38,206 nt of DNA from Verrucomicrobiaceae bacterium (lineage in GTDB: Bacteria > Verrucomicrobiota > Verrucomicrobiia > Verrucomicrobiales > DEV007): positions 1 to 38,206 of the forward strand of contig JAACDM010000069.1 of assembly GCA_009936795.1 (NCBI GenBank), given 5' to 3'. The first letter of the stretch is position 1, and each line of letters opens with the position of its first letter. Positions 9,975 to 33,250 of the stretch are shown here, one piece after another. Position numbers and translations under genes: made by a program. The notes below the pieces were generated by a model. That model did not search any database, had not been told where the DNA came from, and saw nothing but the letters and a program-made list of their open reading frames with translations.

Positions 9975-10928
9975 TTACTTTTCTTCGCCCCAGATCACTT
10001 CGAATCTCCCTTTGGAATCGGCCGCTGCGCGTGCCATGCCTCCTGTGTTGAATTGCATCGTGATCTTGCCGTCTTTGTCTACGGCGATGATTCCTCCTGT
10101 GTTCTTCTTTAGGCGTTGAGTTAGGATTTCGTTTGCTGCCTTATCAATTGGGGTACTGGCGTAGCGCATTTGGGCTGCCATATCGTAGGCGATTGCACGG
10201 CGAATGTACTCTTCGCCGGTGCCAGTGCACGACACGGCGCAGGTGGTATTGTCCGCGTAGGTGCCTGCGCCAACGATCGGCGAATCGCCTACGCGACCAA
10301 ACTTTTTGTTCGAGAGTCCACCCGTGGACGTCGCTGCAGCAAGATTGCCATGGCTGTCCAGCGCAACGCATCCGACCGTGCCTTTGCTGAGTTTCGCGCG
10401 GCTGTCTTGCCAGGCTTTGCGTGCGGCGAGGGTGTGAAAGTAGTCTTGGGTTACTAGAGGCACCTTCTTCTCCTCGGCAAACTTATCGGCACCAGGTCCT
10501 GACAAGAGCACGTGTCGGGTGTCCGTCATGACGAGACGAGCGAGGGTGATGGGATTCTTTGTGGTGGTGACCCCGGCCACAGCTCCGCAGGCCAACGTCC
10601 TGCCATCCATGATCGAGGCGTCGAGCTCGTGACCGCCAGCTGCATTAAAGACCGCACCGCGACCGGCATTGAATTGAGCATCGTCCTCAAGCAGGCGCAC
10701 GACGGCTTCCACCGCGTCGAGACTCGTGCCGCCGTCTTTGAGAATGTTGGTGCCGGTCTCCAGAGCTGCTTTCATCGAAGCAGCGCGCTTGATGTTGGCT
10801 TCGTTGCTAAAGTTTGAAGGTGCCGAGCCAGCGCCCCCATGAATAGCGATTGCGTAGCGGTGTTCCTGAGCCTCTGCGGCGAATATGCTGAGTCCAAGGA
10901 ATAAGAAGAGTGGGAGGCAATGACGCAT
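9975..10928 (-). CDS. iaaA: Exported isoaspartyl peptidase/type 2 L-asparaginase (Ntn hydrolase)
   Basis: Plant-type asparaginase of the N-terminal nucleophile family. The precursor cuts itself before a threonine, which then hydrolyses isoaspartyl dipeptides and, more weakly, asparagine. The family opening [10 protein letters not shown] (25-34) follows a signal peptide ([16 protein letters not shown], residues 5-20), so the enzyme is expected in the periplasm. The autocleavage site is in [10 protein letters not shown], with T184 as nucleophile; [17 protein letters not shown] (201-217) and [12 protein letters not shown] (233-244) supply the second threonine and oxyanion region. At 317 aa it is full length. 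It is convergent with iolG and divergent from the ankyrin lipoprotein gene. Confidence 0.9.
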
Positions 10929-11051
10929 GAGGTTAATGTGTGTTGGATAAAATTTTGTATATTTCTAAAAAGTCTAACGAGAAACTCTCACCGAGTCGAG
11001 TCAAGATTTTCCGTGTTATCCGTTGAGCTTCGTGCTAGTGATGTTCGAGCC

Positions 11052-12572
11052 ATGCGTGTCCTTATTCTCCTTAGTCTTGGTCTCTTCCTACCTTTGACGG
11101 CTTGTCGAGATCGGGAAGAGGTGGCGCTCAGTCAGCTGGAAGAGCGAGGCTATAGCTTCGCTGTGAGTGCTTACCATGGTGCCGCAGCCAACGGAGATGC
11201 TCCTGCCGTGATAGAGTACCTCGAAGCGGGTATGGCTGTCGATGTTGAGGGAGAGAACGGCCTAACCGCATTTCAAAACGCTGCGTCGGAAGATCACGAT
11301 GAGCTTGTGCGAGTTCTGATCGAGGCAGGAGCCTCGCCAGATCAGCGCCTTGCGAATGGGCGCACGATGCTAATGCGTGTGGCCGATCGTGTCGGTGGTG
11401 ATTTGCGTATGCTAGAGTTTCTTCTTGAGAATCGTGCCGATCCTCTCGCGGTGGACAGTAGTGGCATGACATCACTCATGGTGTCTGCGCTTGCTGGCAA
11501 TGTCGATGGGGTGAGGCGATTGTCAGAACGGGATGTTCGTTCGCTTGACAAAGCGCTTATGTTGGCCTCGGCACAGGGTTACACGCATTGCCTTGAGGTT
11601 CTCATTGAACGTGGTGCCTATGTGAATTGCCGTAGTCATGATACACAGACGCCGCTGATGTATGCTGCTGGCAAGGGGCACATGGAGGCCACGCAGCTCT
11701 TGCTCCGTCACCATGCGAACCGTTTCGCCCTAGATGATAATGGCAGAACGGCGGCAGATCGTGCGGAGGCGGCCAATCTACCAGCGTTGGCCGCCATTCT
11801 GCGTGACACCTCCAATCTTCTTGCCTCAGGTGTGCCGGCCAACAACGAATTCCTTCCCAGCCTAGATGGGCAACTCATTGTATTGCTTTCCGAGCCGATG
11901 ATGAATGACGTTGTGGGCTCTCTCGATCCTATTGAGCCTGAGCGGCCAGTATTAGAATCCCCTGATGAGGAATCGATGGAAGAAAGTGACGTGGATCCGG
12001 CGAATCCCCGACCACCTACTTTATTGGTGAAACCTGTGATTATCAAGAAGGGTGATCCGATCGGAACCAGTTCTGCTGCCACTTCGAAGCCTGTTGATTT
12101 ACAGACTGAGTTGCAGTTGGGACGATTCGAAGAGCGGTTCGAACCTCTATTAGTCACCGACGTAGATGGTGATAAAGCAAGTATGCGCCTTCTCGGACGT
12201 CCTCCGGAAGAGGCGATGATTACGGTTCTCGTTGGTCAGCGTATTCCCAACACCTCTTACGAAGTGACACGAGTGAACAAGCGGGTAAGGCCTACCAAGG
12301 GTGGTGGTATGCTCGACATCTCAGAGGTCTACGTAAAGAGTAGCCAGAAAGACGGTGAGCAACGATTCGTTCGCAATACGTTGCCTCGCGACGAGGCCAC
12401 TCATCTTGTGGTGGAGGCGAAACGCTCTAAGCAGCGCTTTGCGGCGCGGCTGGGCGATGTGTTCACGATTGCGGAGACACAAGAGTCCTACACCGTGACC
12501 GATATGCGTCCCCATCAACTTCTCATTCGAAATGAGGAGACTCAAGAGATCCTTACGATTGACCGTCACTAG
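11052..12572 (+). CDS. Ankyrin-repeat lipoprotein
   Basis: The start at 11052 is preferred over an in-frame ATG at 10920 because it gives a clean lipoprotein signal: MRVLILLSLGLF followed by the lipobox LTAC with Cys18 as lipid anchor. Residues about 37-255 hold five to six ankyrin repeats (for example NGLTAFQNAASEDHDELVRV and QTPLMYAAGKGHMEATQLL), a protein-binding solenoid. One repeat around RRLSERDVRSLDKAL is degenerate. Residues about 260-370 are an acidic, Pro-rich linker. The last about 130 residues form a beta-rich domain (LVGQRIPNTSYEVTRVNK to LLIRNEETQEILTI) that I do not recognise. The 506-aa product probably sits in the envelope and binds a protein partner. It ends 10 bp from the convergent megasynthase-like gene. 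Confidence 0.8.
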   Translation: MRVLILLSLGLFLPLTACRDREEVALSQLEERGYSFAVSAYHGAAANGDAPAVIEYLEAGMAVDVEGENGLTAFQNAASEDHDELVRVLIEAGASPDQRLANGRTMLMRVADRVGGDLRMLEFLLENRADPLAVDSSGMTSLMVSALAGNVDGVRRLSERDVRSLDKALMLASAQGYTHCLEVLIERGAYVNCRSHDTQTPLMYAAGKGHMEATQLLLRHHANRFALDDNGRTAADRAEAANLPALAAILRDTSNLLASGVPANNEFLPSLDGQLIVLLSEPMMNDVVGSLDPIEPERPVLESPDEESMEESDVDPANPRPPTLLVKPVIIKKGDPIGTSSAATSKPVDLQTELQLGRFEERFEPLLVTDVDGDKASMRLLGRPPEEAMITVLVGQRIPNTSYEVTRVNKRVRPTKGGGMLDISEVYVKSSQKDGEQRFVRNTLPRDEATHLVVEAKRSKQRFAARLGDVFTIAETQESYTVTDMRPHQLLIRNEETQEILTIDRH

Positions 12573-12582
12573 ACTACTCTCC

Positions 12583-15500
12583 TCACGGAGATTCTAGCAG
12601 TGTGCTATTGCTTAATAGGCCTTTGAACTTCGCTGCAACATCTGAGGTGTCCCTTGTGGATATCACCGTCATGCCACCTCTCACGAGACCGTCCCAACCG
12701 AGTTGATGCAGTCCGGTGTGGGTGTCGTGGCGGAAGAGTGTGATGGCACCCTGATACGCTCTGGGCACATAAGCCTGAAGCGGCGGGCAATCGTGTTGTC
12801 CCTCACTTTCTTCAGCAGCTGGATTAATCGTATCGAATAAAGCCACGGAGTCCAAGGAATCTCCCTGGTCCATCGCCTGCTGGCCAACTTCGTAGGCTAT
12901 AGTCCCTCCTAGTGGCCCACCAGTGACAATGAAGGATTCCCCTCCAATGCGGCTCCGAATCTCTGCCAGGCACGCTTCAGCCATGCTCTCGACGCACTTT
13001 TCGGAGGCATGAACAAAGTCGGTCACGATGAGATAGGCGGGACGATCACTGATTGAGCTATCCGCAATCTCCTGACAAATATCCTTATCTGAGGGGCTGG
13101 CTGCAATGAAGAAGATGGGCTGGCCCGTTGTTCTAGTGGACAGCGGCGTTACGCTTAGGGGGTTGCTGGTTGGGTGGATGTTAGATCGTAGACCGTCCTT
13201 GGCAAGAATAAGTGAACCGTCCTCGTGCCACATGGCACGTGTGCCAGTGTGGAAGAGCACTCCTTCGGAGGGTGTGAATCTGCTCTTGACCACGTCTTTC
13301 CGCTGATCTGTATCCTGGAAGAGTGCGAGCCCGTCTCCGCCTACCCAAACGTCTCCAGTCATGCCTGTTGGTACTGGTTGGTGGGCTTCGTTAAGCAGGT
13401 AGATTTGAGTATGTGGGATCGGAGAGCCCAGGTTGGTGAATTCTGCTTCTAAATCCTCCTCAGTGATGGTGTGACAACATGTCAGGAGAGAGTTATACAG
13501 GGAGCCGTAACCAATGGTGAGGCTGACAGGGAGTTCTTCTAGAATACGGGCAACGATCTCGCGAGCGGGGCGTTTGTCTGTGATGACGATTTGGCGGATC
13601 CAGGATAGGTCTTCCGCATGGCGCTCCATTAAATTTGTGAGTTCTTCAGAGGTGAGGACCAGCGAGCTGACCCGTTGTTTGCCTATCGTTTCAGCCAGAT
13701 TCGCAGTGGAACGCATTCCCTGGGGAATAGCGAGGACTCCTCCGTTGAGCAAGGCTCCCCAGACCTCTAGTAAGCATCGATCCGATGAAGGTGATCCTCC
13801 TAGCAAGAACACTTCATGAGGGCTTAGCGTGGCATAGTCTGTATTCTTGACCAAGCGAACGAGACTTCGATGAGGCAGGCTGACTGGAGCTGAGGACTGC
13901 TTTGTCCAATCGAAGAGCACGGTGGCGGAAGCGTTCAAACTTCCAAAATGCGAGGTGGGCGTCTCATTGGCAGTTGGCTGGATGCCCTTAGAAAGTAGAT
14001 TAAGGTCCTGAATCTCTAGTTCTTTGCTTGTCCACTCTTGCGAGTCGGAGACCGGCTGGTCGGAAAGGAGGAGTTTGACTTGCGCCATTTTCAGAGTGTC
14101 AGGATCAGCGCGATGCTGAGGATCTAAAGGCAGATAGGCAGCGCCAACTTTAAGAATGGCCAGCCATGCCTCTAACATAAGGGGTGAAGGCTCAGCTAGG
14201 ACGGCGATCGTATCGCCGGTATCGACCCCCTGCTGCAGCAAGGCGGCTGCGAGTTGATCTGCTCGAGTATTGAGGTCTCCATAGCAAAGCTTATCGTGTC
14301 CGTAGCGGACAGCAATTCTACTTGGCGTTTTGGCCGCAACCGATTCGAACAACTTGTGAACTGGCTCATTGGGAAAGCTTCCTGTGGTGGTAAGATTTCG
14401 GCTAATGACTAGATTCTGGAAATCGCTGCTGGAGACAAGAGGAAGTTCCTCTACGAGGGTCTCCATAGGCATTGTAGCAAATCCTTCTAGAAGTACAATG
14501 AAGCAATCCATCCAACGCGCGATAGTGTCTTCGTGATACCTTGACGCGTCGTAGTCGCAGAGGACGGAGCTTGAGGTGATCTGCCAATGGATGGCCAGTT
14601 CTTCTGGGATTTCGTCGAGAGAGAAACCACAGGTTGGTCCGTGGTTGGCTAGCCAAGCCACGAAAGTCTCTGGTTGGAACAATGTATTCTCAATTGCCAG
14701 CTCTTTCGCTTCACAGATTCGTTCAATGGATTGATTGATGGTGTCAGGTTCGCGGGCAGAGCAGAGCGGTGTATTGACTCCTTCGATATTTGCCAGGAAC
14801 GCAATTCGGTCCGTGCCGCTCCAGGCTTGGAAGAGTCTTTGGAAGCAGGCGAGGAGAAGATTCTCGTATTGGCCGTTGAGAGCCTTGGCCCGTGTGTCCA
14901 GGGCTTGAGCAAGTTGCGTGGGCAGCGCATAGCGAAGTGTCTTTTGAGACTTTTCAGATTTGTCTACATAATCAGCTGGCCAAGAGCCCTGTGCACCTGT
15001 TAGGTGATTTTCCCAATACCCCAATAGCTTCTTGTCCTTTTTCCCTGCAAGTCGGGCTTGATAAGCAGCAAAGTCTACGAGCAGGAATCCCCGATCTTGT
15101 AGAGCGTGAAAGCTCTCGATGAAAGCGTTGTGTACGCGGGCAAGGTCTTGTTCTGTATGCGATAGTGTAGTGGCATTCACCGCACTGGTAGAAAGCCGCA
15201 CGCCCTGCAGTAGGCTCTCGGCTTCAAATAGACGCGATTCGTCAGGAGAACTACTAGGTTCAAGCGTGAATAGTGCGCCTAGGCGACGGATTTTCAGAGG
15301 AGCGTCTAGTTCGTTTGCGACCGCCTGGAGTCCTGCTAGGAGGTGTGTGGTGCGTTCTTGCCACTGAGGGATGCGTTCGGCAGAAGCACGGTTGATCGCG
15401 TTCAGTGTCGCGTGAGCCGCCACCAAAGGGAGAGTGTTCGATAACGTTGCAAACTCATCCTCTGTGCTTCGACGTCCATCGAACCATTCGGCATTGCCAC

Positions 15501-18500
15501 TGACGATTCCCAGGGGAAGTCCATCAGCGAGGGGCTCACCGTAGATGACGATGTCAGGTTTGATCGGGGCGTGCTTGGAGTGACCTAGAATATTCCACCG
15601 GAATGCAGTGTCCCGTTCATCGAGGATGAATGCGATATTCCAACGCTCAGTTTCTTCGCGAACGGTCTGAAGGATCTTTGTGCGCTCATCTTCTTCCAAC
15701 TGAATAAGATCAAGAGGATTCACCACGATGGCGGCAAGTTCGCGACGACGACGATAGATTTGTGAGGTGAGTTGGGAGGCGTCGGCTGGCAAAGTTAGAC
15801 AGTGGCCGACGTTCCCTCCTTGGTTTGGCTTTACCAGGCCGATTGCAGGCCGATTCGAATGCTCCTTAGCGAGCATGAAACTGAGGCTCAGAGCATCCGC
15901 AGAAGATTGGGTGAAGGTGACCCTGTCAGATCCATTCTGTGAGGAGATTGCTTTACTGACCTCGAACTTGAGGGCGTGGAGAGCATCTGATGTCGCTGCT
16001 GGCTGGAGATGGTGACGGTAGGCTTTGAGGATCTCCGGTGCTGAATATCCTAACAAATGCTTGGAAACTGAGGGGGAGATATCAACGTAGTTTCTCTCGT
16101 CCGCATCCCAAGCTTGGCCACCGAGTTGGCGAATAATTAGAATGTCAGCGTTGTTTGAAGCTGGTTCCCCTAAGAGGGCTTTTGTAGAAGCGATCCGTTG
16201 CTGGCTTTGCGGGGCGGCTTCGCGGATACGGGCATTAACTTCTTCCATGTAGTCTGCAATCCCTGCAGGAAGCGGTGCATCTTCTGGGCCTGCGGTCTCG
16301 GGCGTTGACGGGAAGACTGCTGAACGAAGGTCGTCGAGGGCATTTTCAATTTGTTCGAATCTACAGTGAAGCTTGGCAGGATCGCCTAGGGGTGTGTTTG
16401 ATGGCGCTTGAGATACCTCCTCCTGGCTGTCTGGCGCGCTTGGTGGCGTGTCACTTCGGGCCTCGTTATTTGGATGGTCTGCAAGAGTGGTCGAGTTGGA
16501 TTCCTCAGTAGAGTCGAAGGAGTCGTTCGTGGTCTGATCGATCTCTACTTCCTCAAAACTTTCTTGAATGGGGGCATTCTCCGAAGGCTCCTGCGACGAC
16601 TCTCGAAGGGGATCTTGGCTCAGAAGAAGTTGAGCGGCAGCTTGGGCTCCTAAGGGTGGGCGATTTATCGTTGGTGGATCTGTTTTTTCTTCACTAGCAG
16701 GTTCAGCATATTGAATTTCGGGCGACGTGTCTGCAGCTCCTGGCTCGGTTTCTTCGGATGGTGCTTTGGAGAGAGCTACGGTGTCGACACCATGGAATGC
16801 ATGCCAATCGACAGGAACGCCTTGTTCCCAAAGCTTCCCTAAGGTCGAAACGATGTGGTGCATTTCGTCTTGTGGGCCTTGGGTGGTTCCACTGAATGCT
16901 CTAAGGCCAGTGACATCGGACTGTTTCAAACTATCGGTGAGTGTATCTCCCGGTCCTACTTCGAGAGCCAGACCAGAGAACGCTCCCTCCAAATGGTTGA
17001 GACCTTCGCTAATACGCAAAGGCTTTGAGAGTTGTGAAATCCAATGAGTAGGAGCGCTTGCAGCCTCATCCATCACCCAATCCCCAGTGACTCCAGAGAT
17101 AAATGGAATTTGAGTGGGCTGGAGATCGACGTAAGAGAGAACGGTTTCGAAAGCGTCTTCGATCACGTCCATGGCATTGCTCTGGCGAGGGGTGGAGTAA
17201 CCGAGAGCAGTGAATGCAATGCCTTGGGTCTGCAGGATTTCCTCAAGAGCTTCGACACGTCGGGTAGGCCCTGTAATTAGGGTACACTTGGTCGACTGAT
17301 ACGCAGCGACGTCGACTTGCTGTTTTAAGAAGGGTTTCACTTCTTTAGCTGGTGCATTCACCTTGAGAACCCGTCCCTCAGGACAACGCTTGGAGATGAG
17401 TTCGGCTCGTTTAGCGATGAGTGCTAGACCTTCTTCAATTGTAAACACGCCGCCCAGGCATGCGGCGACATACTCGCCAATTCCTTGACCGAGACATGCA
17501 TCAGGATAGACTCCCCAAGACATCCAGAGGCGTGCGAGCGCGAATTCCATGGCGAATACGGCGGCGTCTGTGTGGATCGACGTCTGGCTGAACTGCTTGG
17601 GATCGAAGAGGGTCTCTCTTAAATCGTGGCCGTTTAGTTGACGGTGTGTGTCACCGCACCAGTCAATGACTTCGCGAAATGTCGCCTCACACTCGTAGAG
17701 CCCCTTACCCATGAGGGGGTGGGCTGCCCAGGAATCGGGAAAGAGGAAGACGGTCGGAGGTTGGGGCGTTGCTGCAAGCGTGTTGATCGATTGATTGAGC
17801 AGAAGCCTTGTCTGGTCAAGATCTGTCATTGCCATGCTGGAGCGATGTGCCTTGGTGTGTTTGCTCGTTGCTAGAATGCTAGCGATCTCCTGAAGGCCTT
17901 CTGTATTTTGAAGAGGAAGCTGTTTGGCGAGAGTTACACGTTCAGTATTTAGCAGTTCGTTAGTGTTTTCGGACGCGATGAGAAGTGCTGGACGGCTGAC
18001 CTTTTCAGCTGCCTGATTTAGTAGGTGAGCCTCCTCAGCGAGGTGAACCTCTTTAGCAAGACGTTCTTCTTCGGCAAGCCGAGCCTCTTTAGCGCGGTGT
18101 GCTTCCTCCTTAAGCCATGCATCTTTAGCGAGGCGTGCTTCCTTTATAAGCGTAACGGCAGCATTTGAATTTTCGCTCGGAATCTTGTTCGACAGTTGCG
18201 TGAGAGCCTTCTCTTGCGGTTTGATCTTTGGCGTGAGGCCATCCGCTTTGTCCGAAACTATGGTAAATGGGCTTTCGATGATTCGCTGGGTCAGGTTAAG
18301 ATCGGGATCAAGCGCCCCGTGCTTGCTGGCCAGGTGCTTTTGCAGTTCGGAAAGGTGCTTATTGGCAAGGTTTTCGATCGTCTCGCGCTTATGTAAATGC
18401 CGGCTGTAGCTCCATCGAAAGACGAATTTGCCATCTGCTTCTCGTGATTCTAAGACAACTTTGTAGCTACGGAGGGCTCTCGGACTGTGCAATGCACCAA

Positions 18501-21420
18501 CGGCTTCTTGAGAGGGCTGGAACAAGCATTCTGCGGTTAGCTCAGTGGTAGTCGCTTTGCGGGGACGAAAGCTCATCCACGGCGCAGGCAGATCTGTGTC
18601 GGGGTTTCCAATTCCATGAATCTCCTGAAGCGTTTCAAGTTGTTTGCCTAGATTGTTCGCGGTGTCTTCGAAGCTACCAGAAGGTGAAAGAAGGATGGGC
18701 GCCGATTGCTCGCACCATCCTATAGTCTGACTAACGTTAGTAACGGTCTTACGGTCTTCCCAAGTCCAGTTGGCCAGTGTCGGTTTTGCTTCTAGAGCCT
18801 GGAACGTATGGGCCAAGCTTGCAGCCAAGATGGCTTCAACAGGCTGCGATTGGCTGAGCAAGACTTTGGAGTTTTCCTCATCGAGGCTTATTTCTAATTG
18901 CTCCTGACTCCCCTCGATGTTTCTGCCGGGATTCTCGAAGTCTGCGGGAATGCCAATGGAGGCGCTAGCGCTATCCGCGAGAACATCCATGTAGGCCTCA
19001 CGAGCCACTCTGGGTACTTGACTGATCTCTTCAAGCCACGTCGCATAGGAAGCTGTTTTTGCTGGGAATTGCGGATCGGCTCCATGGGAACGAGCTTCAT
19101 AGTCCGTAGCAAGGTCTTTCAAGAAGATTCCCCACGAGGTGGAATCAATCACGAGTTGATGGGCGACTAAGAGCAGTCTTGCTGGTCGTTTCGCGCCTAG
19201 ATCGAAGTAGACGGCGCGTAAGAGAGCTCCTTGGCGAATGTTCAGTCTGCCTTGCGTAGCCGCAGCGATCGTCTCAATCTGGTCTTGGATACCATTGTCA
19301 GAAGCCTTTCTTAGATCGACAACCCTGAGAAGGTCGCCACCAGTGGTCTTACTATATTCCTGTCGCCACTCGCCGGTCTTGAGATGAAACTTCAAACGGA
19401 AGATAGCATGTCGATTTGACACTTCCGTGAGAGACCTCTCAAGCAGCTTACAATCCAGAGGCTTCTTCGTTTGGAGCATAAGCGCATTGTTCCAATGATC
19501 TCGCCCTTCAATATTCTGAGGGAAGAACCATGACTGAATCGGAGAGAGAGCAAACGGTCCATCTGGAGGCGCGGGTGCCGATTCCTTGCCGGCGTCGTCG
19601 GTTGCTGGTGGGCTTACGACGATGAATGGTGATACAAGTGGGCTATCTTCGCTCGGGGCGCAGGAGGACGCCTCTGATTCGATGATAGAGTTTTGGTGGT
19701 CTAACTGAGAGAGTGTCCGCCACGTGCTTGCAATTCGCTGAATGGCTTCAGATGGTGCGACATGACCCTCAGTGTCCAAAGGCGATGTGTAGGCTTCTTT
19801 CAATTCTACTGTGTCTCGATCGCCGAGCGTCTTCGCTAGTTTGATAGGAACCTGAAAGACGCTCCAACCTTCTTCTGGGAGGTCCTGTCTGCAGTGGCTG
19901 ACCATTTGGTCAAGAAACGTTTGAGTGTTCCGGTTGTCTTCCGAAGAGAGGAAGGGCAGGTCGATATCTAGGCAGTTATGCTGCGTAGCAATCTCGGAGA
20001 GGTCAGCGAGCATTCTGTTCTCTACCCCGCGATACGCGGCAATGTCATCCAAGAGGAAGTTATGAACCAACAACGTCCGTTTGACTCTCTCAAACATGAT
20101 AAGTCCAACGACGCCGAGATCGCTGTGAATGTCCTGCACGCGGAAGAGTGTTGCGTAATGGTATGGTCGTCTCAGCCAAGTCTTGATCTCGCTTTCTGAG
20201 AATCGGCGGGCCGTGGCATTGAATAGAGTTGCCTGCGAAGTCAGCTCAGCCATTCGGGCATGTTGCTCGGGCGTTGGCGAAACTTGGGTGACCTTGACAT
20301 CAAGCGCTTCCACATAGTCTGCGAAAGATCGAGAGTTTTGGCGCAGAAGGCGTCGTTTGCTCTCTGCCAGTTGCTTGTCAGCTTCGTCTAATCCCATGTC
20401 TTTGTTAGACAAGTCTCTGTCGAGTAGCCAAAGGTGACCAAGAAAGTCTGGGATCTCATTCGCATTTTCCGGCAGGACGATACTGATGATGTCTGACCGC
20501 TGCTTGCGCAGTTCGGTAACCAAATCGGCGCTCTTGGATAAGAAGGCTACGTGGTGTCCTGGAATGCCTAGCTGTTTCGCGAGCAATTCTACTGCTTCTC
20601 GAGCGGACGTTGAGTGGCGACGGACATCCACGATATCGTCAGCTTTCAGTATCATGTCCGGGTGATCGAGGATCGCCCGCTTAACAGCGTGATCGGGGCC
20701 ATCACTAAGAACGGCGATGAGAGCTCCAGACTCTCGCTGACTAGCGAGGGCGCGTTGAAGCTCGCGGTGTTCCGCTGCGATTTTGATAGGATCGCTTTTC
20801 TCTAGCGTCGGGCTTTCTTTCCAAAGAGTATCATGGTCGTGGACAATCAGAAGCTTAGGAGCGGGATGGTGGGCTTGGTGGATGAAGCGCGCAGCAATCA
20901 TTGCGAGCGCCGGATAGAGTGGGATTTGATCTCCATCGGTGCCGCTCGTGGACCCCATCCATTCTGGAGAGCGCGCCACATGGACGTGGTCATTATTGCT
21001 CAGCGACGCAAACAGGTGATTTTCGACTTGCTTGGCACAGGCCTTTGCATCGTCACCGGTGGCGTCCTCAGGTGGAGCAAGAAGAACGATCACATTGTGT
21101 TTAGCCTCACCACATTGGTTGAGGAGTTGGCTAGCGAAGGCGTTTGCAGCGGAGTCTTTTTGTGATCCACTGCGAGTGGCAGCGGAGTCTGAGATGGTAA
21201 AATCAGGCCAATCACTCGGACGGACAATCAGGAAATTGATGGAGTGAGCATCTTCACGTTTAAGACCTTCATTAACGAGTTTGCCTGGATCACTGGCGGC
21301 GGGGCGAATCACCAGTTCAGTGTCCCAACCGAAGCGTTGTCTCCAGGCCTCGAGAGGCCCGCGGAGGGGCTCCAAATCGAAGGTTCCCGTAAGGGAGATA
21401 GGTGCGTGTGGTGAACTCAT
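12583..21420 (-). CDS. Giant PKS/NRPS-like protein with all recognisable active sites lost
   Basis: One uninterrupted frame of 2,945 codons. Domain order: FkbH-like (1-550), condensation/epimerization-like (624-1031), charged heptad-repeat helix (1093-1140), KS-AT linker and acyltransferase (1140-1545), acidic disordered linker (1545-1740), class III aminotransferase (1750-2112), C-lobe of a condensation domain (2113-2335), adenylation (2350-2748), thioesterase (2765-2940). Known hybrid synthases with these domains build lipopeptides or glyceryl-primed polyketides. Here the catalytic positions I can align are changed: HAD motifs I and IV, H754-Q755, G1313 for the AT Ser, Q1413 for the AT His, E1962 for the PLP Lys, no adenylation P-loop, P2836 for the TE Ser. 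The KS body and every carrier domain are absent. No partner synthase, phosphopantetheinyl transferase or exporter lies nearby. No membrane segment or signal peptide is evident. It is unlikely to make a product itself; scaffold, regulatory or relic roles are inferences. Confidence 0.9.
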   Translation of the reverse strand: MSSPHAPISLTGTFDLEPLRGPLEAWRQRFGWDTELVIRPAASDPGKLVNEGLKREDAHSINFLIVRPSDWPDFTISDSAATRSGSQKDSAANAFASQLLNQCGEAKHNVIVLLAPPEDATGDDAKACAKQVENHLFASLSNNDHVHVARSPEWMGSTSGTDGDQIPLYPALAMIAARFIHQAHHPAPKLLIVHDHDTLWKESPTLEKSDPIKIAAEHRELQRALASQRESGALIAVLSDGPDHAVKRAILDHPDMILKADDIVDVRRHSTSAREAVELLAKQLGIPGHHVAFLSKSADLVTELRKQRSDIISIVLPENANEIPDFLGHLWLLDRDLSNKDMGLDEADKQLAESKRRLLRQNSRSFADYVEALDVKVTQVSPTPEQHARMAELTSQATLFNATARRFSESEIKTWLRRPYHYATLFRVQDIHSDLGVVGLIMFERVKRTLLVHNFLLDDIAAYRGVENRMLADLSEIATQHNCLDIDLPFLSSEDNRNTQTFLDQMVSHCRQDLPEEGWSVFQVPIKLAKTLGDRDTVELKEAYTSPLDTEGHVAPSEAIQRIASTWRTLSQLDHQNSIIESEASSCAPSEDSPLVSPFIVVSPPATDDAGKESAPAPPDGPFALSPIQSWFFPQNIEGRDHWNNALMLQTKKPLDCKLLERSLTEVSNRHAIFRLKFHLKTGEWRQEYSKTTGGDLLRVVDLRKASDNGIQDQIETIAAATQGRLNIRQGALLRAVYFDLGAKRPARLLLVAHQLVIDSTSWGIFLKDLATDYEARSHGADPQFPAKTASYATWLEEISQVPRVAREAYMDVLADSASASIGIPADFENPGRNIEGSQEQLEISLDEENSKVLLSQSQPVEAILAASLAHTFQALEAKPTLANWTWEDRKTVTNVSQTIGWCEQSAPILLSPSGSFEDTANNLGKQLETLQEIHGIGNPDTDLPAPWMSFRPRKATTTELTAECLFQPSQEAVGALHSPRALRSYKVVLESREADGKFVFRWSYSRHLHKRETIENLANKHLSELQKHLASKHGALDPDLNLTQRIIESPFTIVSDKADGLTPKIKPQEKALTQLSNKIPSENSNAAVTLIKEARLAKDAWLKEEAHRAKEARLAEEERLAKEVHLAEEAHLLNQAAEKVSRPALLIASENTNELLNTERVTLAKQLPLQNTEGLQEIASILATSKHTKAHRSSMAMTDLDQTRLLLNQSINTLAATPQPPTVFLFPDSWAAHPLMGKGLYECEATFREVIDWCGDTHRQLNGHDLRETLFDPKQFSQTSIHTDAAVFAMEFALARLWMSWGVYPDACLGQGIGEYVAACLGGVFTIEEGLALIAKRAELISKRCPEGRVLKVNAPAKEVKPFLKQQVDVAAYQSTKCTLITGPTRRVEALEEILQTQGIAFTALGYSTPRQSNAMDVIEDAFETVLSYVDLQPTQIPFISGVTGDWVMDEAASAPTHWISQLSKPLRISEGLNHLEGAFSGLALEVGPGDTLTDSLKQSDVTGLRAFSGTTQGPQDEMHHIVSTLGKLWEQGVPVDWHAFHGVDTVALSKAPSEETEPGAADTSPEIQYAEPASEEKTDPPTINRPPLGAQAAAQLLLSQDPLRESSQEPSENAPIQESFEEVEIDQTTNDSFDSTEESNSTTLADHPNNEARSDTPPSAPDSQEEVSQAPSNTPLGDPAKLHCRFEQIENALDDLRSAVFPSTPETAGPEDAPLPAGIADYMEEVNARIREAAPQSQQRIASTKALLGEPASNNADILIIRQLGGQAWDADERNYVDISPSVSKHLLGYSAPEILKAYRHHLQPAATSDALHALKFEVSKAISSQNGSDRVTFTQSSADALSLSFMLAKEHSNRPAIGLVKPNQGGNVGHCLTLPADASQLTSQIYRRRRELAAIVVNPLDLIQLEEDERTKILQTVREETERWNIAFILDERDTAFRWNILGHSKHAPIKPDIVIYGEPLADGLPLGIVSGNAEWFDGRRSTEDEFATLSNTLPLVAAHATLNAINRASAERIPQWQERTTHLLAGLQAVANELDAPLKIRRLGALFTLEPSSSPDESRLFEAESLLQGVRLSTSAVNATTLSHTEQDLARVHNAFIESFHALQDRGFLLVDFAAYQARLAGKKDKKLLGYWENHLTGAQGSWPADYVDKSEKSQKTLRYALPTQLAQALDTRAKALNGQYENLLLACFQRLFQAWSGTDRIAFLANIEGVNTPLCSAREPDTINQSIERICEAKELAIENTLFQPETFVAWLANHGPTCGFSLDEIPEELAIHWQITSSSVLCDYDASRYHEDTIARWMDCFIVLLEGFATMPMETLVEELPLVSSSDFQNLVISRNLTTTGSFPNEPVHKLFESVAAKTPSRIAVRYGHDKLCYGDLNTRADQLAAALLQQGVDTGDTIAVLAEPSPLMLEAWLAILKVGAAYLPLDPQHRADPDTLKMAQVKLLLSDQPVSDSQEWTSKELEIQDLNLLSKGIQPTANETPTSHFGSLNASATVLFDWTKQSSAPVSLPHRSLVRLVKNTDYATLSPHEVFLLGGSPSSDRCLLEVWGALLNGGVLAIPQGMRSTANLAETIGKQRVSSLVLTSEELTNLMERHAEDLSWIRQIVITDKRPAREIVARILEELPVSLTIGYGSLYNSLLTCCHTITEEDLEAEFTNLGSPIPHTQIYLLNEAHQPVPTGMTGDVWVGGDGLALFQDTDQRKDVVKSRFTPSEGVLFHTGTRAMWHEDGSLILAKDGLRSNIHPTSNPLSVTPLSTRTTGQPIFFIAASPSDKDICQEIADSSISDRPAYLIVTDFVHASEKCVESMAEACLAEIRSRIGGESFIVTGGPLGGTIAYEVGQQAMDQGDSLDSVALFDTINPAAEESEGQHDCPPLQAYVPRAYQGAITLFRHDTHTGLHQLGWDGLVRGGMTVISTRDTSDVAAKFKGLLSNSTLLESP
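12601..13128 (-). other. Type I thioesterase domain, Ser replaced by Pro
   Basis: Residues about 2765-2940. GQPIFFIAASPSD is the usual opening. The nucleophile elbow GxSxGG reads GGPLGGTIAYEV, with Pro2836 for Ser (codon CCA, complement at 12913-12915). The acid is kept in LFDTINPA (D2863). The expected GDHF-type His near the C-terminus is absent (STRDTSDVAAKF). The domain follows the truncated adenylation domain directly, with no carrier between. Confidence 0.8.
13177..14373 (-). other. Adenylation domain, nucleotide-binding motifs erased and C-terminal subdomain missing
   Basis: Residues about 2350-2748. A1/A2 are good: CYGDLNTRADQLAAALL and LKVGAAYLPLDP. The A3 P-loop (TSGSTGxPKG) reads DWTKQSSAPVSL (2504-2515) before the retained PHRSLV. 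The A5 motif YGPTE reads YGSLY (2638-2642). A6 is fair (GDVWVGGDGLA). A7 TGD reads TGT (2725-2727). After A8 the sequence stops matching, so the C-terminal lid with the A10 lysine is missing. ATP-dependent amino-acid activation is not expected. Confidence 0.87.
14416..15084 (-). other. C-terminal half of an NRPS condensation domain
   Basis: Residues about 2113-2335. FLLVDFAAYQARLAGK and LLGYWENHLTGAQ match the middle of condensation domains (DYAxWQR, YWxxxLxG), and LLLACFQRLFQAWSGTDRIAF matches the C-lobe. The N-lobe of about 170 residues with HHxxxDG is absent: the aminotransferase end runs directly into the mid-domain sequence. No catalytic His is therefore available. Confidence 0.78.
15085..16173 (-). 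other. Class III aminotransferase (AMT) domain, PLP Lys replaced by Glu
   Basis: Residues about 1750-2112, related to the glutamate-1-semialdehyde-aminomutase-like AMT domains of mycosubtilin/iturin-type synthases. Kept: WDADERNYVDISPSV, LLGYSAPEI, the PLP Asp in ILDERDTAFRW (D1934) and PDIVIYGEPLADGLPLG. In the last of these the canonical YGKxIGGG lysine is Glu1962 (codon GAG, complement at 15535-15537). The aromatic stacking motif GxYHG reads NQGGNVG, and NSGTEA reads QSSADA. PLP chemistry should be impossible. Confidence 0.85.
16786..17757 (-). other. Polyketide acyltransferase (AT) domain, Ser and His both lost
   Basis: Residues 1222-1545. PTVFLFPDSW corresponds to the FxFPGQGxQ start of AT domains. 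The nucleophile elbow GHSxGEY reads GQGIGEYVAACLGGVF (1311-1326), with Gly1313 for Ser (codon GGA, complement at 17482-17484). The HAFHS box reads STPRQSNAM (1409-1417), with Gln1413 for the catalytic His. The post-AT linker WEQGVPVDWHAFHG is well kept. Residues 1140-1221 resemble the KS-AT linker (RPALLIASENTNELL and following), although the ketosynthase itself is gone. Confidence 0.88.
18001..18144 (-). repeat. 21-bp/7-aa charged heptad repeats in the linker
   Basis: Residues about 1093-1140 are a run of imperfect heptads of the EARLAKE / AHLAEEA kind, rich in Ala, Glu, Lys and Leu. At DNA level units resembling ctctttagc recur about every 21 bp on the + strand. The segment should form a long, highly charged helix, possibly a coiled coil. 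It lies between the condensation-like domain and the KS-AT linker, close to where the missing ketosynthase would be. It looks like replication-slippage expansion. Confidence 0.75.
18328..19551 (-). other. Condensation/epimerization-type NRPS domain, catalytic His lost
   Basis: Residues 624-1031. The opening LSPIQSWFFPQN with DHWNNALML is typical of epimerization domains and their close condensation relatives. The motif HHxxxDG with following SW reads HQLVIDSTSW (754-763): the second, catalytic His is Gln755 (codon CAA, complement at 19156-19158) and the Gly is Ser760. QTIGWCEQSAPILL matches the later VGWFT-type motif. Because the carrier domain that would present the substrate is missing too, neither condensation nor epimerization is expected. 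I cannot decide between the two subtypes. Confidence 0.85.
19771..21399 (-). other. FkbH-like (HAD IIIC) domain of the giant protein, degenerate
   Basis: FkbH domains dephosphorylate 1,3-bisphosphoglycerate and load glyceryl onto a carrier protein. The order of segments is conserved: the N-terminal fold ISLTGTFDLEPLRGPLEAW, the HAD core, LTSQATLFNATARRFSESEI (family: KTNQFN-TTRR) and the GNAT-like FRVQDIHSDLGVVGLIMFE. The catalytic core is changed. Motif I, canonically DLDNTLW, reads HDHDTLW (194-200), placing His at both Asp positions when anchored on TLW. Motif IV, canonically FLDDNP, reads FLSKSA (293-298). Motif I could be rescued by a one-residue register shift (D195, D197), but motif IV could not. 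Confidence 0.87.
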
Positions 21421-21525: not shown

Positions 21526-21556
21526 ATAATATTCTTTTGCAAATAACTAAGGTCAA
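21526..21556 (-). promoter_or_regulatory. Candidate sigma70-type promoter of the giant gene
   Basis: On the minus strand, TTGACC (21556-21551) is followed after 19 nt by TATTAT (21531-21526), or after 17 nt by AATATT. It lies within an AT-rich patch that stands out from its GC-richer surroundings. It is about 105 nt upstream of the ATG at 21420. No strong Shine-Dalgarno precedes that ATG (AGAGACTGCTC). Pattern-based only. Confidence 0.35.
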
Positions 21557-21639: not shown

Positions 21640-22623
21640 ATGCTTTCGCTCTCGTTTTCGTGGTCTCTTGTCGTCTGTAGTTCTCATTTCCTAGCAATGC
21701 TCGCATCATTGGCGATTAGAGACCCAGGAAGCGCGGATGCATACAAGGCGGAGGCGGCTCTGGAGGAGCGATATCGGGTCAAGAACACCTGTATTCCCAC
21801 TGGCTGGACGATGCAGAGCGCCTGATCTACAGGCGTGAGCTGGCTTCGGGAGTGTATCGTATCGCTTGAGCTGAATTGAGTCGGCCACAGGGAAAGGCGG
21901 ACCAGCCCCCGATCACACTCAGCTAGCTATCGCCCTAGGAGAACAGACCAGACAGGCGAGCCATTCACGAACGAACCCCTGTGCATGGAATCAATCCGGG
22001 TGCGTTCTGGGGATGGCAAGACGGCCATTGAGTTTTGATCTCAAGGTGTTCGTTGGCACTGGGTTTTGCCATGCTTAGATTAGAGGCAGCCTTCGCCATG
22101 AAGCTTTGCTTAAGGCTGGTAGAGGAATATCAGCGTCTCATCGACAACTAGATACCAGGAAGTGTCCCGAGGAGGAATACAACGGTGAGCACTGGCCTGG
22201 CAAGATGCTCGACACTCTCGGTAAATGTCAGTCATAAGCGCAACATATCACCGCGGACACCTGTCCTTGGTTTAATTGTGCTGCAGTGGCCGATTGTGAT
22301 TACCACGACAATCGCATGGACAAGATATGGTGGACTGAGCGTTGGATCGATTGGTCTATGGAACCGCTTTACGCAGAGCAATAAAACTTCACCCAGGCTC
22401 ATTGCTGGCAAGGCAAGCTATCCCTAGCCGTCGGCAAACCCGATATGGATGTAAATCCGGCCTCGACGATACAGGTGTTAACCGCGCTTAACGACGCCGA
22501 CAAGGAATTCGATCTTCTCTTTGAGCCTGGAGCGAATCATGGTGTGGGGAAGCGGAAAGCCGTCGGCAAGACTTCTCCGTGCGCTATATATTGAGCGTTG
22601 AGCCACGCCATGACGAACGTTAG
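21640..22623 (+). pseudogene. Decayed S9 (dipeptidyl peptidase IV/prolyl oligopeptidase) peptidase gene
   Basis: Fragments of an S9 peptidase can be read in order but in shifting frames. Near 21740 an Ala/Glu-rich N-terminal piece (YKAEAALEERYRVKN). At 21798 HWLDDAERLIYRRELASG, ending in TGA at 21867. At 21911 DHTQLAIALGEQTRQ. At 22286 VADCDYHDNRMDKIWW and WSMEPLYAEQ, then a TAA (22382-22384) where the family has Ser. In the same frame come VGKPDMDVNPAST and KEFDLLFEPGANHGVG, holding the catalytic Asp and His regions. After a frameshift the C-terminus SRRQDFSVRYILSVEPRHDE ends in TAG at 22621. About 1 kb remains of an expected 2.2 kb or more, so the middle, with most of the propeller and the Ser site, is deleted or unreadable. 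It fills the otherwise gene-free interval and ends overlapping the convergent 178-aa gene by 4 bp. Confidence 0.78.
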
Positions 22624-24788: not shown

Positions 24789-26513
24789 CTAGGACTCTTT
24801 CGGGATCAACTTCACTGTTTTGAACCAGGCGGCTAGACCTGAAGTGCGTTGGAGAGGCCGCTCCACGCTGGCTCGTACGCTGCTGATTGGTCCCCATATG
24901 GACACGGTATTCCGAGCGCGGGTCACGCCTGTGTAGAGCAGTTCCCGGGTGAGGAGGCGAGATGCTTGATCTGAGAGCACTAGCAGAACGTCGGTAAATT
25001 CGCTCCCTTGGCTCTTGTGGACCGTCATGGCGTATGCGGATTCGTGAGCTGGCAAGCGGGCGGGAGGGATGCGGCGGTAATTGCCGTCACCAGTGCGAAA
25101 GAAGGCATGCAACTTGCCGTTCCAAGGAAGCAGGATGCCAGTGTCGCCATTGAAGAGTTCGACGGCGTAGTCGTTCTCAGTGATGAGGATTGGGCGACCA
25201 GGATACCAACGCTGTGCGCGGCTCTGGCCCATGCGTGTCGCTAAAATATCGCGCACGTATTCGTTGATGGTCTCGGCGCCATACGGACCCCTGCGATGCG
25301 CGCAGAGGATGCGAAGCTCGTCGAGCTTTTCAAAGGCTTGGTCAGGTTCCGGACAATTTGCTAATGTTCTTAGATAGGCTCCAAGTCTCTGCCACAGAGC
25401 GTCTCGCATCTGGCTGGCGCTTGGAAGGGGTTCTTGAGTGCAGGACGTATCTTGGTCATCGGCCAAGAGAAGTTCTGTTAGGTCTGCATCCCCATTGCGA
25501 ATGGCGACTGCGAGAGCGCCGATGCCTGTGTCCTGGGCAAAGCGATAGTTGCGCGTGAGTTCGACGCGAGGCAGTGGACTGTGTTCAGAACACAGGGCTT
25601 TAAAGACCGCGCCGGCATCCACGGATGGCAATTGTGCACGATCTCCGACGAGCAAGAGGCGGGTATTAGGTTTTAGCGCTCGCAAGAGTTTCGCAAAGAG
25701 TCCCAGATCCATCATGCTAGCTTCGTCGACGATGACTAGGTCGTAGGGGAGGGGATTATCCGCGTGATGTTTAAAAGTCGTTTGGTGACGTTGATAGCCC
25801 AACAAGCGGTGGAGTGTGTGTGCCTGGGTAAGCAGTGCCGTGGCAATGGCGTCATTGACTTCAGGAGCCGCTACTCCCGCTGCGATCGATTCTTGTAACC
25901 GTAGGGCGGCTTTGCCAGTAGGTGCCGCGAGCGCGATCCTGAGTTCCGGATGCAGTGAAAGAAGATGACCAAGGATGCGTAGCACTGTCGTCGTCTTGCC
26001 GGTTCCTGGGCCTCCGGTGAGGATAAAGAATGGATGTGCTGCGGCAAGTTGAACCGCTTGCTCTTGTTTGTCTTCGTGAAGTGGCCCTGGCGTGGAGGAC
26101 TGTCCTCGCATTAACCAAGATCTTAAGCGTATCGAGATCTCATTCTCGTAGGTCCAGTGGCGTCGAAGATAGAGCCAACGATCTTTCCGCAGCACAAAGG
26201 GAGTCTGGTCGCCCGGTGAACCGATCGCTTTGCTGTCTTTAAGGGAGGCGATCCAGTTGGCGGTCTGAGGCATCACCACGTCCTGCTCATCTGGTGCTAT
26301 TTCTTGGCTCTCCCAAAGGTCATCTGGAACCAGTTTCGCTAGATCTACGCAAACATGACCGCGTTGAGGCCATTGGCTAGCAAGAGCCATGGCAAGTTGC
26401 ACATCTGGGCGGGACTCGTTGGTGAGTCGAGCCGCGAGGTTGGTCAAATGGACGTCCACTGGAGAGATCGCTCCCGATGCTTGCAGAGAAGACAGTGATA
26501 AACGTCTATCCAT
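24789..26513 (-). CDS. recD: RecBCD exonuclease V, alpha subunit RecD
   Basis: 5'-3' superfamily 1 helicase subunit of RecBCD, which processes double-strand breaks. Walker A is TGGPGTGKTTTVLRIL (about 166-181), motif II is VIVDEASMMD, and the C-terminal motifs are AMTVHKSQGSEF and LYTGVTRAR. At 574 aa it is typical of RecD. The start ATG at 26513 overlaps the end of recB by 8 bp, which fits the recC-recB-recD order and translational coupling. Confidence 0.93.
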   Translation of the reverse strand: MDRRLSLSSLQASGAISPVDVHLTNLAARLTNESRPDVQLAMALASQWPQRGHVCVDLAKLVPDDLWESQEIAPDEQDVVMPQTANWIASLKDSKAIGSPGDQTPFVLRKDRWLYLRRHWTYENEISIRLRSWLMRGQSSTPGPLHEDKQEQAVQLAAAHPFFILTGGPGTGKTTTVLRILGHLLSLHPELRIALAAPTGKAALRLQESIAAGVAAPEVNDAIATALLTQAHTLHRLLGYQRHQTTFKHHADNPLPYDLVIVDEASMMDLGLFAKLLRALKPNTRLLLVGDRAQLPSVDAGAVFKALCSEHSPLPRVELTRNYRFAQDTGIGALAVAIRNGDADLTELLLADDQDTSCTQEPLPSASQMRDALWQRLGAYLRTLANCPEPDQAFEKLDELRILCAHRRGPYGAETINEYVRDILATRMGQSRAQRWYPGRPILITENDYAVELFNGDTGILLPWNGKLHAFFRTGDGNYRRIPPARLPAHESAYAMTVHKSQGSEFTDVLLVLSDQASRLLTRELLYTGVTRARNTVSIWGPISSVRASVERPLQRTSGLAAWFKTVKLIPKES

Positions 26514-29500
26514 GAGCGACCTCCTGTGGTCCTGTGAGGAACTGTGACAAGTCTTCTATCAATGAGGCTGAAGGACGGTCAGTGAAGACGCCAAATATAG
26601 GACTAGATTCCTGGCTGATGCCGCGAACAAAGAGATAACGCACGCCTCCAAAGTGGGTGTCGTAGTCGTACGTATTGCCGAGTCGGTAGCTGAGAAATCG
26701 ATGTAGGGCGACGACATAGAGATGGTACTGGAGGACGTAATTTGATTCAGCCATGACGCTGGGTAGACGCTCATGATGATAGTCTTCAGCGTGGCCTCCG
26801 AGAAAGTTCGACTTGTAGTCCGCGATGAAATAACGGCCTTCGTGTTGGATCACCAAATCGATGAACCCTTTGAGGAAACCCTCGACCGGGAAGAAGTCGA
26901 AAGCGTTCTGGCGAGACAGCAGCTGGTGTTCCTCGAAGAATTGTTCCAAGCGAGCCACCGTGAGATTGCCGATAGGGAAGTGAAAAGCGAGTTCGTTCAA
27001 CCGCTGGCGATCGGAGATGTCAGCGAGTCGGAAACCGTCGAGATCACTGTGGAAGAAATCCAGTGTGTGGTGGGTCAGCTCCCCCAACCAGTCGTCGACA
27101 GAGAGGCCGTGAACCTCCAGCTGCTTCTTGGCCTCGGTGTGAATGGCTTCGGCGCTAGCTTGAAAAGAAAGATTTTCGTAGATAGCATGGAGCATGTTTC
27201 CCGTGCGTGCGCCTCGAGGGAGCGCATCCATGCCGGACAGTTGTTCGGCAGGGATTTCTGGCGCTGGCAAAGGATCTGGAGCGTCGCGGTCGGGAGTTTC
27301 TAATGTTTCACCATGTCCTGCCAATGATGAATAGCTTGTGATGCCCCAGTTGCGACTGGGCTGAGCTTGAAACTGGCGTGGTGCTTGCGCTCGCTCGGAT
27401 TCATGTTGAGACAGCGTCACTTGGTTCCGATTCTCCCAAGTTCCGAGGGCAATAGTACCATTGCTAGCACCTACCAGTTTTGCCAAGTCCTCTCGGAAGC
27501 GCATGGGCGTGTGCCTCTCTAACCTATCTTTGACATCTGAAAGGGAGCCCTCAAGATCGCTTTCCAAATGGTGCCAAAGGTAGGCAAGACTAGAGGCCTT
27601 GTACTTCTTAGTTTCTGGAGCAAAGAGTAAGTAGACGCGATGTTGGGCGCGTGTCAGGGCCACGTAGAGAAGGCGGAGTTCTTCTTCCAATGCTTCTTCA
27701 CCGGCTTGACCGCGATGCATATCGAAGCTTTCGGAGCCCACGTCAATCACGCGCCTGTGGCCGTGTTGTTCGGCCTGGTGAAAGCTCACGTAGTCTTTGT
27801 CCTTTCGACTTCGATCTGTGCCCATCCATGCATACGGCATGAACACGAAGGGATATTCGAGTCCTTTGCTCCTGTGAACGGTCACGATCTTGACGCGATC
27901 ATCATCGCTTTCTAGTCGGAGCTCTTTCTCGTCCGATAGCGAGGAATCGCGCTCGTCCTGGTACCATTGCAAGGTTGCATGGATACTTAACTTCTTCGAT
28001 GCCTGGGCTTCTTCGACCAGTTCGGACAAATGAAGAATGTTGGTGAGGCTGCGCTCACCATTGGGCAAGGCGAGGAGGCGCTGAGAGAGGTATTCTTCGC
28101 GCAAGAAGCGCCTGAACATCACGATGAAGCTCTCGGCCCGCCATTGCGCACGGTACGAGCCAATCATTTCTAACAAACTGCCCCAACGTCCTTCATCAGT
28201 CAGTGCTAGCTTGAGATCTTCATTGGTGAATCCCATCAGTTCGCTCAGCAAGAGTGCCTTGAGAAGGTTCTCATCCCGAGGTGAGGCGAGGACGCGTAGA
28301 AAGATGTCGAAACACTCTGCTTCCTTCGTTTGGAAGAGGTGCTGCCGTTCGTAGCTCACGGTTTTTACACCCAGTTGTTGAAGGCATTCTTGAAATGCAG
28401 GAGCTTGCCAGTGGGATCGAATGAGGATCGCAATGTCTGACGGGGCCACTGCGTGACCGTTGACATGGAGAGCCTGATCGCGCCCTAACTGAAGGAGTCG
28501 CGCAATTTCCTGACAGGTGGCTTCAACGCATTGCTGCTCCGCTTCGCGAGGGCCTTTCTCCGAGATCTGCCATAGCTGCATCGGTGCGATGTCGGCATCC
28601 TCTCCAACGAGCGTGCGCTGGCGATCATCAAGCGAAATGGGCGGAGAATTCACCACATGATAGTCAATTGCAGATGACCAGAATGGCCGAGGTGCCACAC
28701 GGTAGACGGTGTTCACCGCTTCGATCAGTCCTGGCGATGATCGCCAGTTCTCTCCCAAGGTGGCCAGGTGATCCGCCTGTTTCCGAGCGTGGGTGTAGGT
28801 AAAGATATCGCCGCCGCGGAAAGCGTAGATGGCTTGCTTCGGATCTCCTATTAAGCAAAGGAGTCGATGGTCTTCGCTGTCGTGTAGATGCTTGAAGATG
28901 GCATATTGGGTAGGGTCGGTATCTTGGAATTCGTCGATAAGAATGATAGGATACTGCTGCCCCAATGACGCTGCGAGCGTGCCGGATTCTTCTTGCAATG
29001 CCTGGCGTGCGTTCTGCAGAAGGTCTTCGTAGGCAAATCGATTGAGCAACTGCTTTCGCTCGGGAAGTCTCTGGCGAAGGAAGAGTAGCAAGTCGCGCTT
29101 CGTTTCCACCCATTGATGCTCAAGCATCGCTTCCAAGACTTCTCCCTGATCACTCAGGTTGTCACAGAGGTCGAAGAAGGCATGAGAAGGAGGTGTCTCG
29201 CCGTCCTTGGTATTCTCGACAAGCTTGGTGTTTGTAAACCTACTGAGTTTGTCGCACGTGCTCGGCAGAGGAAACGGCTCGGCGAGCCAGTCGCGAACGG
29301 CAGCGAGCCAAGTGATGGTGCGCTTGGCTTGGTAAACGCGGCCGTTCAGTTTAGCTTCATTTATGGTGGCGAGGATTTCGTTCTCGTTGGAATCCAGAAA
29401 TGCTTGAACTTCGGCGATAAGATCTTCCCACGACTTTAGATCGGCATGGGGAGCTTCCTCGTTTGATTCAGGGACAATGTCGGCGTCGGCCTGAGACATT

Positions 29501-33000: not shown

Positions 33001-33250
33001 GTGGCTCGCCGCCAGTTTGCTTGGCGACGTCTGGCAACACTTCCATGAGAATCCACTGAAGCGCCTCCCGGTCCAGTAGTGCCGAGTGCTCCTCATTCCA
33101 TCCAGGAGTATTGGCCACCATCACCCTGGTGAGAAAAGGGATGGGGAAGGGAAACTGAATATTGGCGCTAACGCCTAACGTCGTCGCGAGTTCGAGGGAC
33201 AACCAACGCTCCAACCCATGGCTTTGCACCATGATGACGTCGGCAGCCAT
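30083..33250 (-). CDS. recC: RecBCD exonuclease V, gamma subunit RecC (5' end frameshifted)
   Basis: RecC holds the complex together and reads Chi. Family signatures are clear: VQSHGLERWLSLELATTLG near the start, FPFPIPFLTRV, CLFGLSSLAPFFVD, and VVLLGMNSKEFPRQDRQDTF in the C-terminal half. The frame given starts at an ATG that falls inside the conserved N-terminal domain (MAADVIMVQSHG). The expected first residues, MLTIHSSNRVETLAARLGGL, lie immediately upstream (ATG at 33333) in a frame one nucleotide out of register. Either the gene uses the internal start and has lost about 28 residues, or a 1-nt deletion or sequence error interrupts it. It is the first gene of the recC-recB-recD set. Confidence 0.9.
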   Translation of the reverse strand: MAADVIMVQSHGLERWLSLELATTLGVSANIQFPFPIPFLTRVMVANTPGWNEEHSALLDREALQWILMEVLPDVAKQTGGEPLANFLDPEASSPDVRLYQLASRLGELLDRYQLYRPQILQRWLNGRVLDEEIWQALTWQALIRRTGPYHRLALQRAFLQAIAQKKHGDNLSALPPRICLFGLSSLAPFFVDTLNALSPHTDLHLFFLNPCQEYWGDILSRKQRTRIFSRNKSEPLDPLDQMELGLTAEPDFENELLAYFGKLGRDFFDQLVDIETADHDEEFVFAEGRSALSALQTDILSLQEGQGNIDAETESDAPSLQVHSCHSPMREVEVLNDVLSDLFEKQPDLAPRDVIVMAPKIDDYTSKIHAVFGRPHSDERYLPYDIADRTPRLSHTLSGAFLQLLSLADTRWEVSEILGILECVPIMERFGITETGLDTIRHWIAVSGTRWARDGHSKADFDLPETYANTWQFGLDRLLLGYAMPSNEQASFEGVLPFDHVEGSDLEVLSQFLSLWDQLRATADQLKGLHPASRWAQLGRQIVRQFFVDDPAYAYELQFLYQLFDEFEASVQQANFENNLSLAVVRTYVEGRLDESRTSGGFFTGGITFCNLLPMRSIPFRVVVLLGMNSKEFPRQDRQDTFDLMSNNPVRGDRTRKQDDRYMFLEAMLAARDHFVMLYTGQSLKDNSEMSPSVFVNQLRDYFERVYQIAPSTYSTTHPLQPFSPTYFDPDQRFRTFAREYLESTPSRIEAPELQTDEPTEKIVTIGELIHFLQQPVATYYQHVFGLYKPSSGIETSDVEPITLNALDSWQLDQWILELLEAETPIDEIGDLLLAGGQLPHGAHGRSEVHHVVANVRRFQKSMQEFLASPLVDPIEVDLMVGEWRVRGTLNGLREEGFRRIRFGKIRPKDRYRLWVEHLVAQSLPNLQQKPTIILGRDDQNMALQEFNTTHAAVHELRQLAEIREEALTKPLALFPRASMTYAEQRKKRKDPAESLAKARDDWQGNQHQTGERDDYYHQLAFGTTGNPFDKTFTALSEQIVRPILDNEKKNVEF

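Follow-up and report, generated by a model that had tools for sequence, protein, structure and literature searches.

A giant, predicted non-catalytic megasynthase homolog conserved under purifying selection in a verrucomicrobial genus

The window (the whole 38,206-nucleotide stretch of DNA analyzed here, on contig C186 of the host assembly G000, a 6.6-Mb draft genome) carries an 8.8-kb gene whose product, judged from sequence, is a selected, non-catalytic megasynthase and not the product of a pseudogene. It is a single minus-strand frame of 2,945 codons, running from an ATG (21420) to a stop (12583) with 0 internal stops, and encodes a ~320-kDa protein of 2945 aa with eight or nine dead domains. 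The frame is predicted to derive from a megasynthase of the architecture FkbH-ACP-KS-AT-ACP-AMT-C-A-PCP-TE, or from a recombinant relative thereof with an epimerization (E) domain.

Domain architecture and lost active sites

Pfam models for condensation, AMP-binding, acyltransferase (AT), and class III aminotransferase (AMT) domains match the giant protein above cut-off, and those for thioesterase (TE) and HAD give weak signals; the same scan detected neither a carrier domain nor a ketosynthase (KS). Residue losses were scored against four intact lines of matching architecture and against a wider panel (~30 intact related lines in all), and both comparisons bear out the initial annotation, which had described an intact frame with its recognizable active sites altered. 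The gene and its parts are as follows:

12583..21420, minus strand: whole pseudo-megasynthase gene; single open frame with orthologs in G001 and G003
20386..21420, minus strand: pseudo-FkbH HAD part, aa 1-345 (alignment with intact lines; NCBIfam FkbH)
20821-20841, minus strand: HDHDT in place of DxDxT, aa 194-198; HAD nucleophile Asp replaced by His
20527-20544, minus strand: SK in place of DD in the pseudo-HAD (alignment with intact lines)
19741..20385, minus strand: pseudo-GNAT part of FkbH, aa 346-560 (alignment; AF2 pLDDT ~75-88)
18301..19578, minus strand: dead E domain, aa 615-1040 (phmmer best match PvdL E2; Foldseek)
19141-19161, minus strand: HQLVIDS in place of HHxxxDG in the dead E domain
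17926..18300, minus strand: charged helical/coil linker, aa 1041-1165, with low conservation (sequence)
16741..17853, minus strand: dead AT, aa 1190-1560 (Pfam and alignment)
17473-17490, minus strand: GQGIGE in place of GHSVGE, aa 1311-1316; AT Ser lost
about 17179-17187, minus strand: RQS in place of FHS; AT His lost
16201..16740, minus strand: low-complexity acidic linker at the former ACP2 site, aa 1561-1740; the FLELGFDSLLLTQ motif of intact lines is absent
15076..16188, minus strand: dead class III AMT, aa 1745-2115 (alignment; Foldseek match to a GSA aminomutase)
14401..15075, minus strand: truncated condensation (C) domain, aa 2116-2340; HHxxxDG half missing
13201..14400, minus strand: dead adenylation (A) core, aa 2341-2740, without P-loop and C-terminal subdomain (Foldseek A-core match)
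12586..13197, minus strand: degenerate TE, aa 2742-2945; lid and catalytic His missing
12904-12921, minus strand: GGPLGG in place of GYSFGG; TE Ser lost

The host genome also encodes, on contig C288, an intact 3634-aa hybrid PKS-NRPS paralog of the FkbH-ACP-KS-AT-ACP-AMT-C-A-PCP-TE architecture with all motifs intact, to which the giant protein gives a collinear match. The two share the FkbH ... AT-AMT-C-A-TE order and homology along the whole chain; however, the giant protein lacks the KS, both ACPs, the PCP, the C-terminal subdomain of the A domain, and any intact active site, and carries the dead E domain where the paralog has ACP-KS. The PP-binding domain (PF00550) was found neither in the giant protein nor in its G001 ortholog, as against three copies in the intact paralog, and with both ACPs and the PCP absent no phosphopantetheine site is left; the Cys-His-His of a ketosynthase is likewise missing along with the KS itself. 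By its sequence, the giant protein thus falls outside the type I PKS and NRPS megasynthases, having no carrier Ser, no KS, and no GHSxG and His in its AT, and is classified instead as a predicted pseudoenzyme, combining homology to enzymes with lost catalytic motifs, an intact frame, and purifying selection.

The altered HAD, AT, AMT (Glu1962), adenylation, and TE residues listed in the initial annotation were all recovered by alignment of each domain to the intact lines. Against the NCBIfam FkbH model (TIGR01686) the giant protein scores 110 bits, under the curated cut-off of 146.65 (paralog: 278), and the SCRALGKG loop has gone from the GNAT-like half of the aligned FkbH region, in which aa 434-458 form the most conserved block. 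The HHxxxDG to HQxxxDS loss listed there stands as well, but the domain that carries it (aa ~615-1040), the first nominal condensation domain of the chain, is a dead E domain as judged by its best matches in phmmer and Foldseek, PvdL E2 (E 1e-44) and the E domains of TycA/TycB3 (tyrocidine). A second E motif, EGHGRE, was sought in this domain and is absent. In the AMT, TYGK has become IYGE, with the PLP Lys replaced by Glu1962 and the cofactor-phosphate residues also lost, and the PLP-binding Asp is retained, as had been read from the sequence at the outset; despite the Lys to Glu1962 change, the domain still scores 65 bits against PF00202 (cut-off 30.5). The second C domain is cut down to ~215 aa of its C-terminal part. 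Both the YTSGSTGxPKG P-loop and YGPTE are lost from the A domain, and the score against the NCBIfam amino-acid adenylation model AA-adenyl-dom (TIGR01733) is 140 bits versus a cut-off of 317.4 and 435 for the paralog.

AF2 models, built from shallow alignments, have a mean pLDDT of 61-62 and low overall TM-scores, with pLDDT ~75-88 across much of the HAD-GNAT region. Foldseek matched the A-core to solved A-domain structures, with TMt reaching 0.84, and the AMT to the GSA aminomutase 5i92 (TMt 0.69); as the AF2 alignments took in the intact paralogs, these matches denote fold compatibility and not proof. The structural modeling advised in the initial annotation thus recovered the A-core and AMT folds, whereas the models of the E and second C domains were too poor to be of use.

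On the minus strand ~110 bases upstream of the start codon there is a promoter-like TTGACC-17-AATATT (21528-21556), a consensus match only. Small antisense ORFs within the gene (window 13816-13511) recur opposite the G003 and G001 orthologs and probably just mirror the conservation of the coding strand.

Orthologs, intact relatives, and selection

Two congeneric species (G001 and G003) carry orthologs with 42-44% identity. That of G001 is a complete open frame of 2960 codons aligning end to end, and that of G003, which has neither an E domain nor a TE, is split by contig ends, its N-terminal part running off one contig and its C-terminal part beginning the next; it is open up to those ends, so that the interruption is a contig break only. 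Orthologs broken by stops had been named in advance as the observation that would speak for a young pseudogene; G001 has no stop and G003 is cut by contig ends alone. The catalytic losses are common to all three species (G000, G001, and G003), several as identical replacements, namely HAD Asp to His (HDxD), GQGxGE and RQS in the AT, and AMT Lys to Glu (YGE). Hence, these losses are older than the genus and do not stem from sequencing error. In a profile search of 387 genomes of the order, the three dead proteins scored 1081-1147 bits and the next match, which is catalytically intact, 216. No ortholog was found outside the genus among 75 family and these 387 order genomes, and a scan of the species collection returned only the two known ones. 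In G002, the fourth member of the genus, the flanking asparaginase and FloA genes lie near contig ends and the interval between them is missing from the assembly; the apparent absence of the giant gene there was rejected as evidence of gene loss, since the flanking contigs stop at the locus.

All genomes compared, including the Verrucomicrobiales/Verrucomicrobiia bins among the relatives, are drafts or metagenome bins, a circumstance that might suggest an assembly or sequencing artifact. However, independent assemblies share the gene, its losses, and the following convergent neighbor, which makes the chance of an artifact practically negligible:

10920..12572, plus strand: ankyrin-repeat lipoprotein gene, the convergent neighbor in all three species (54-61% identity)

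An intact FkbH-type line occurs in each genome with the dead gene (C288 in G000, C35 in G001, and C11 in G003), and lines of the same architecture were found across the family and also in a second family within the order. In the FkbH, AT, A, and AMT trees, the dead orthologs group together with a support of 1.0, and a long stem separates them from every intact line sampled; the idea that the giant gene is a broken copy of the C288 gene was accordingly rejected, and none of the sampled lines can be fixed as its exact parent. Motifs are intact throughout the panel except in G033, from another genus of the family, whose only detected FkbH-type line (L079:3192-12734, contig G033:C32; 3181 aa) is an open frame that is dead in two domains, the AT (GCGVGE and a deletion of the His region) and the AMT (Lys to Glu). 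The remaining motifs examined in this line are intact or nearly so, with EANGT for EAHGT in the KS, and by its sequence it looks like an independent step toward the same degeneration.

The initial annotation had proposed that selection acts on the protein and not on its catalysis, and this is supported by a pairwise codon likelihood analysis of the G000 and G001 genes, which gave a dN of 0.57 with saturated dS; dN/dS=1 was rejected (2dlnL 939), as were values >=0.2 (2dlnL 83), the saturation of synonymous sites meaning that the omega values are bounds and not estimates. Omega=1 was also rejected in each domain taken separately, including the TE, which is the least constrained. In a neutral simulation with substitutions but no indels, ~3 in-frame stops had arisen by 0.01 substitutions per site and 61 by 0.285. 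The locus further offers an internal control for decay in the neighbor at 21.6-22.6 kb, rightly seen as decayed from the outset, which is a plus-strand remnant:

21875..22608, plus strand: remnant of an S9/DPP-IV-like peptidase gene

The remnant shows 62% identity over 95 aa to an intact 790-aa protein encoded beside the G003 ortholog (L037:4984-7353, minus strand); as the gene is wrecked here and intact there, genes that are not under selection do decay at this locus. A young or slowly dying pseudogene, still open by chance, would fit with the dead line evolving at about twice the rate of the intact paralog (dN 0.57 versus 0.255), with the weak constraint on the TE, and with the absence of the E and TE domains in G003. 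Against it, the faster line is still strongly constrained, with omega=1 rejected in every domain including the TE, its losses predate the genus, its synonymous sites are saturated, more than one species has the frame open, and the neighboring peptidase gene did decay; we therefore consider a pseudogene very improbable. At the depth of the genus this reading is refuted, and it could hold only for a very recent loss confined to the present strain. Taken together, the open frame, the common losses, and the rejection of dN/dS=1 indicate a selected non-catalytic protein.

Proposed function and comparison with known systems

We see about an even chance that this conserved giant pseudoenzyme acts as a non-catalytic scaffold or regulatory subunit, with its folded domains as binding platforms; the initial annotation had tentatively suggested a scaffold, a decoy, or a regulator. 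Just short of even, and hence more tentative, is our fuller proposal of a pseudo-megasynthase, i.e., a whole assembly-line megasynthase turned into a selected non-catalytic scaffold or regulator of the active paralog. In such a scenario, an ancestral megasynthase, or an E-containing recombinant relative, would have shed its KS together with every carrier domain before the radiation of the genus, and the remaining active sites would have been abolished afterwards, with the domain folds and their order kept by purifying selection. The pseudo-GNAT, pseudo-AT, and pseudo-A domains above all would be candidate protein-binding platforms. The likeliest putative partners are the intact paralog or other biosynthetic proteins, the intact line being a plausible one as it accompanies the dead gene in every genome that has it.

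The pattern of conservation bears on this proposal. Of the residues invariant in the intact lines, the dead line keeps structural ones, i.e., glycines and hydrophobic residues (24 of 57 G, 15 of 28 L, and 10 of 22 A), much more often than polar catalytic ones (0 of 7 K, 0 of 16 T, and 0 of 9 Q). Where the ancestral residue is lost in all orthologs, 40 of 126 positions are identical among them versus 24-37% overall; thus, the former active sites are conserved no more than the domain average, favoring a structural over a pocket-based role. Among the better conserved blocks, however, are the elbow of the AT (aa 1298-1322) and the lysine loop of the AMT (aa 1955-1979), which could reflect a retained pocket function. 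These blocks, conserved among the orthologs like the PLP-binding Asp, would suit a ligand sensor or sequestering protein, whose dead domains bind CoA esters, amino acids, acyl-adenylates, or products of the line and report or buffer them. We consider this unlikely, as the protein has lost the ATP P-loop, the PLP Lys, the phosphate- and malonyl-binding residues, and the metal ligands of the HAD, and as conservation at the lost positions does not, on average, exceed that elsewhere.

The invariance of the replacement residues HDxD, GQGxGE, RQS, and YGE in the three species might instead point to a re-purposed enzyme, in which migrated or new residues in at least one domain catalyze a new reaction, as in the pseudokinase SelO, and alternative activities in pseudoenzymes have precedent (PMC10211241). 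However, neither a carrier domain nor a recognizable cofactor site is left, and the parallel degeneration of many domains would be needless were one new activity the target, so that we rate this lower still than a ligand sensor. A non-catalytic scaffold or regulator is hence the reading that we carry forward.

Individual elements of such a protein have been described. The X-domain of glycopeptide-antibiotic NRPSs, the best precedent for the proposed binding role, is an inactive condensation-type domain that recruits P450s (PMC5238595), and shares with the giant protein a catalytically inactive condensation-type fold under selection; yet it is a single domain within a functional synthetase and its P450 partner is known, whereas the giant protein is a free-standing chain dead in all its domains. 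Pseudoenzymes, including pseudokinases and pseudoARTs, have lost catalysis and retained the fold in scaffold or regulatory roles (PMC10211241); they are usually single-domain proteins, in contrast to the eight or nine assembly-line domains found here. The open-access literature searched yielded no description of a fully inactive megasynthase, in line with the initial annotation, which knew of no such system. Single inactive domains and pseudoenzymes being already known, the new part, as far as the literature searched goes, is an entire assembly line kept by selection although dead. This indicates that the full architecture of an assembly line, stripped of its chemistry, can be worth maintaining over deep divergence, and makes the structural or regulatory value of megasynthase domains themselves directly testable. 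It is also a caution for genome mining, since pipelines that call PKS/NRPS clusters from domain hits can include non-enzymes in their counts.

Neighboring genes

The convergent ankyrin-repeat lipoprotein was considered as a specific partner and rejected, its orthologs occurring in 43 of 75 family genomes without the giant gene. A second ankyrin protein is encoded upstream of the giant gene in G001 and G003 (L034:776-2560, minus strand, and L037:3225-4994, plus strand), and its C-terminus resembles, by eye, a YkuD L,D-transpeptidase with an SHGCVRL motif; this protein was not found in the window. Further along, at 24789-33250, the window encodes an ordinary RecBCD-like set comprised of RecD, RecB with a PD-(D/E)XK domain, and RecC.
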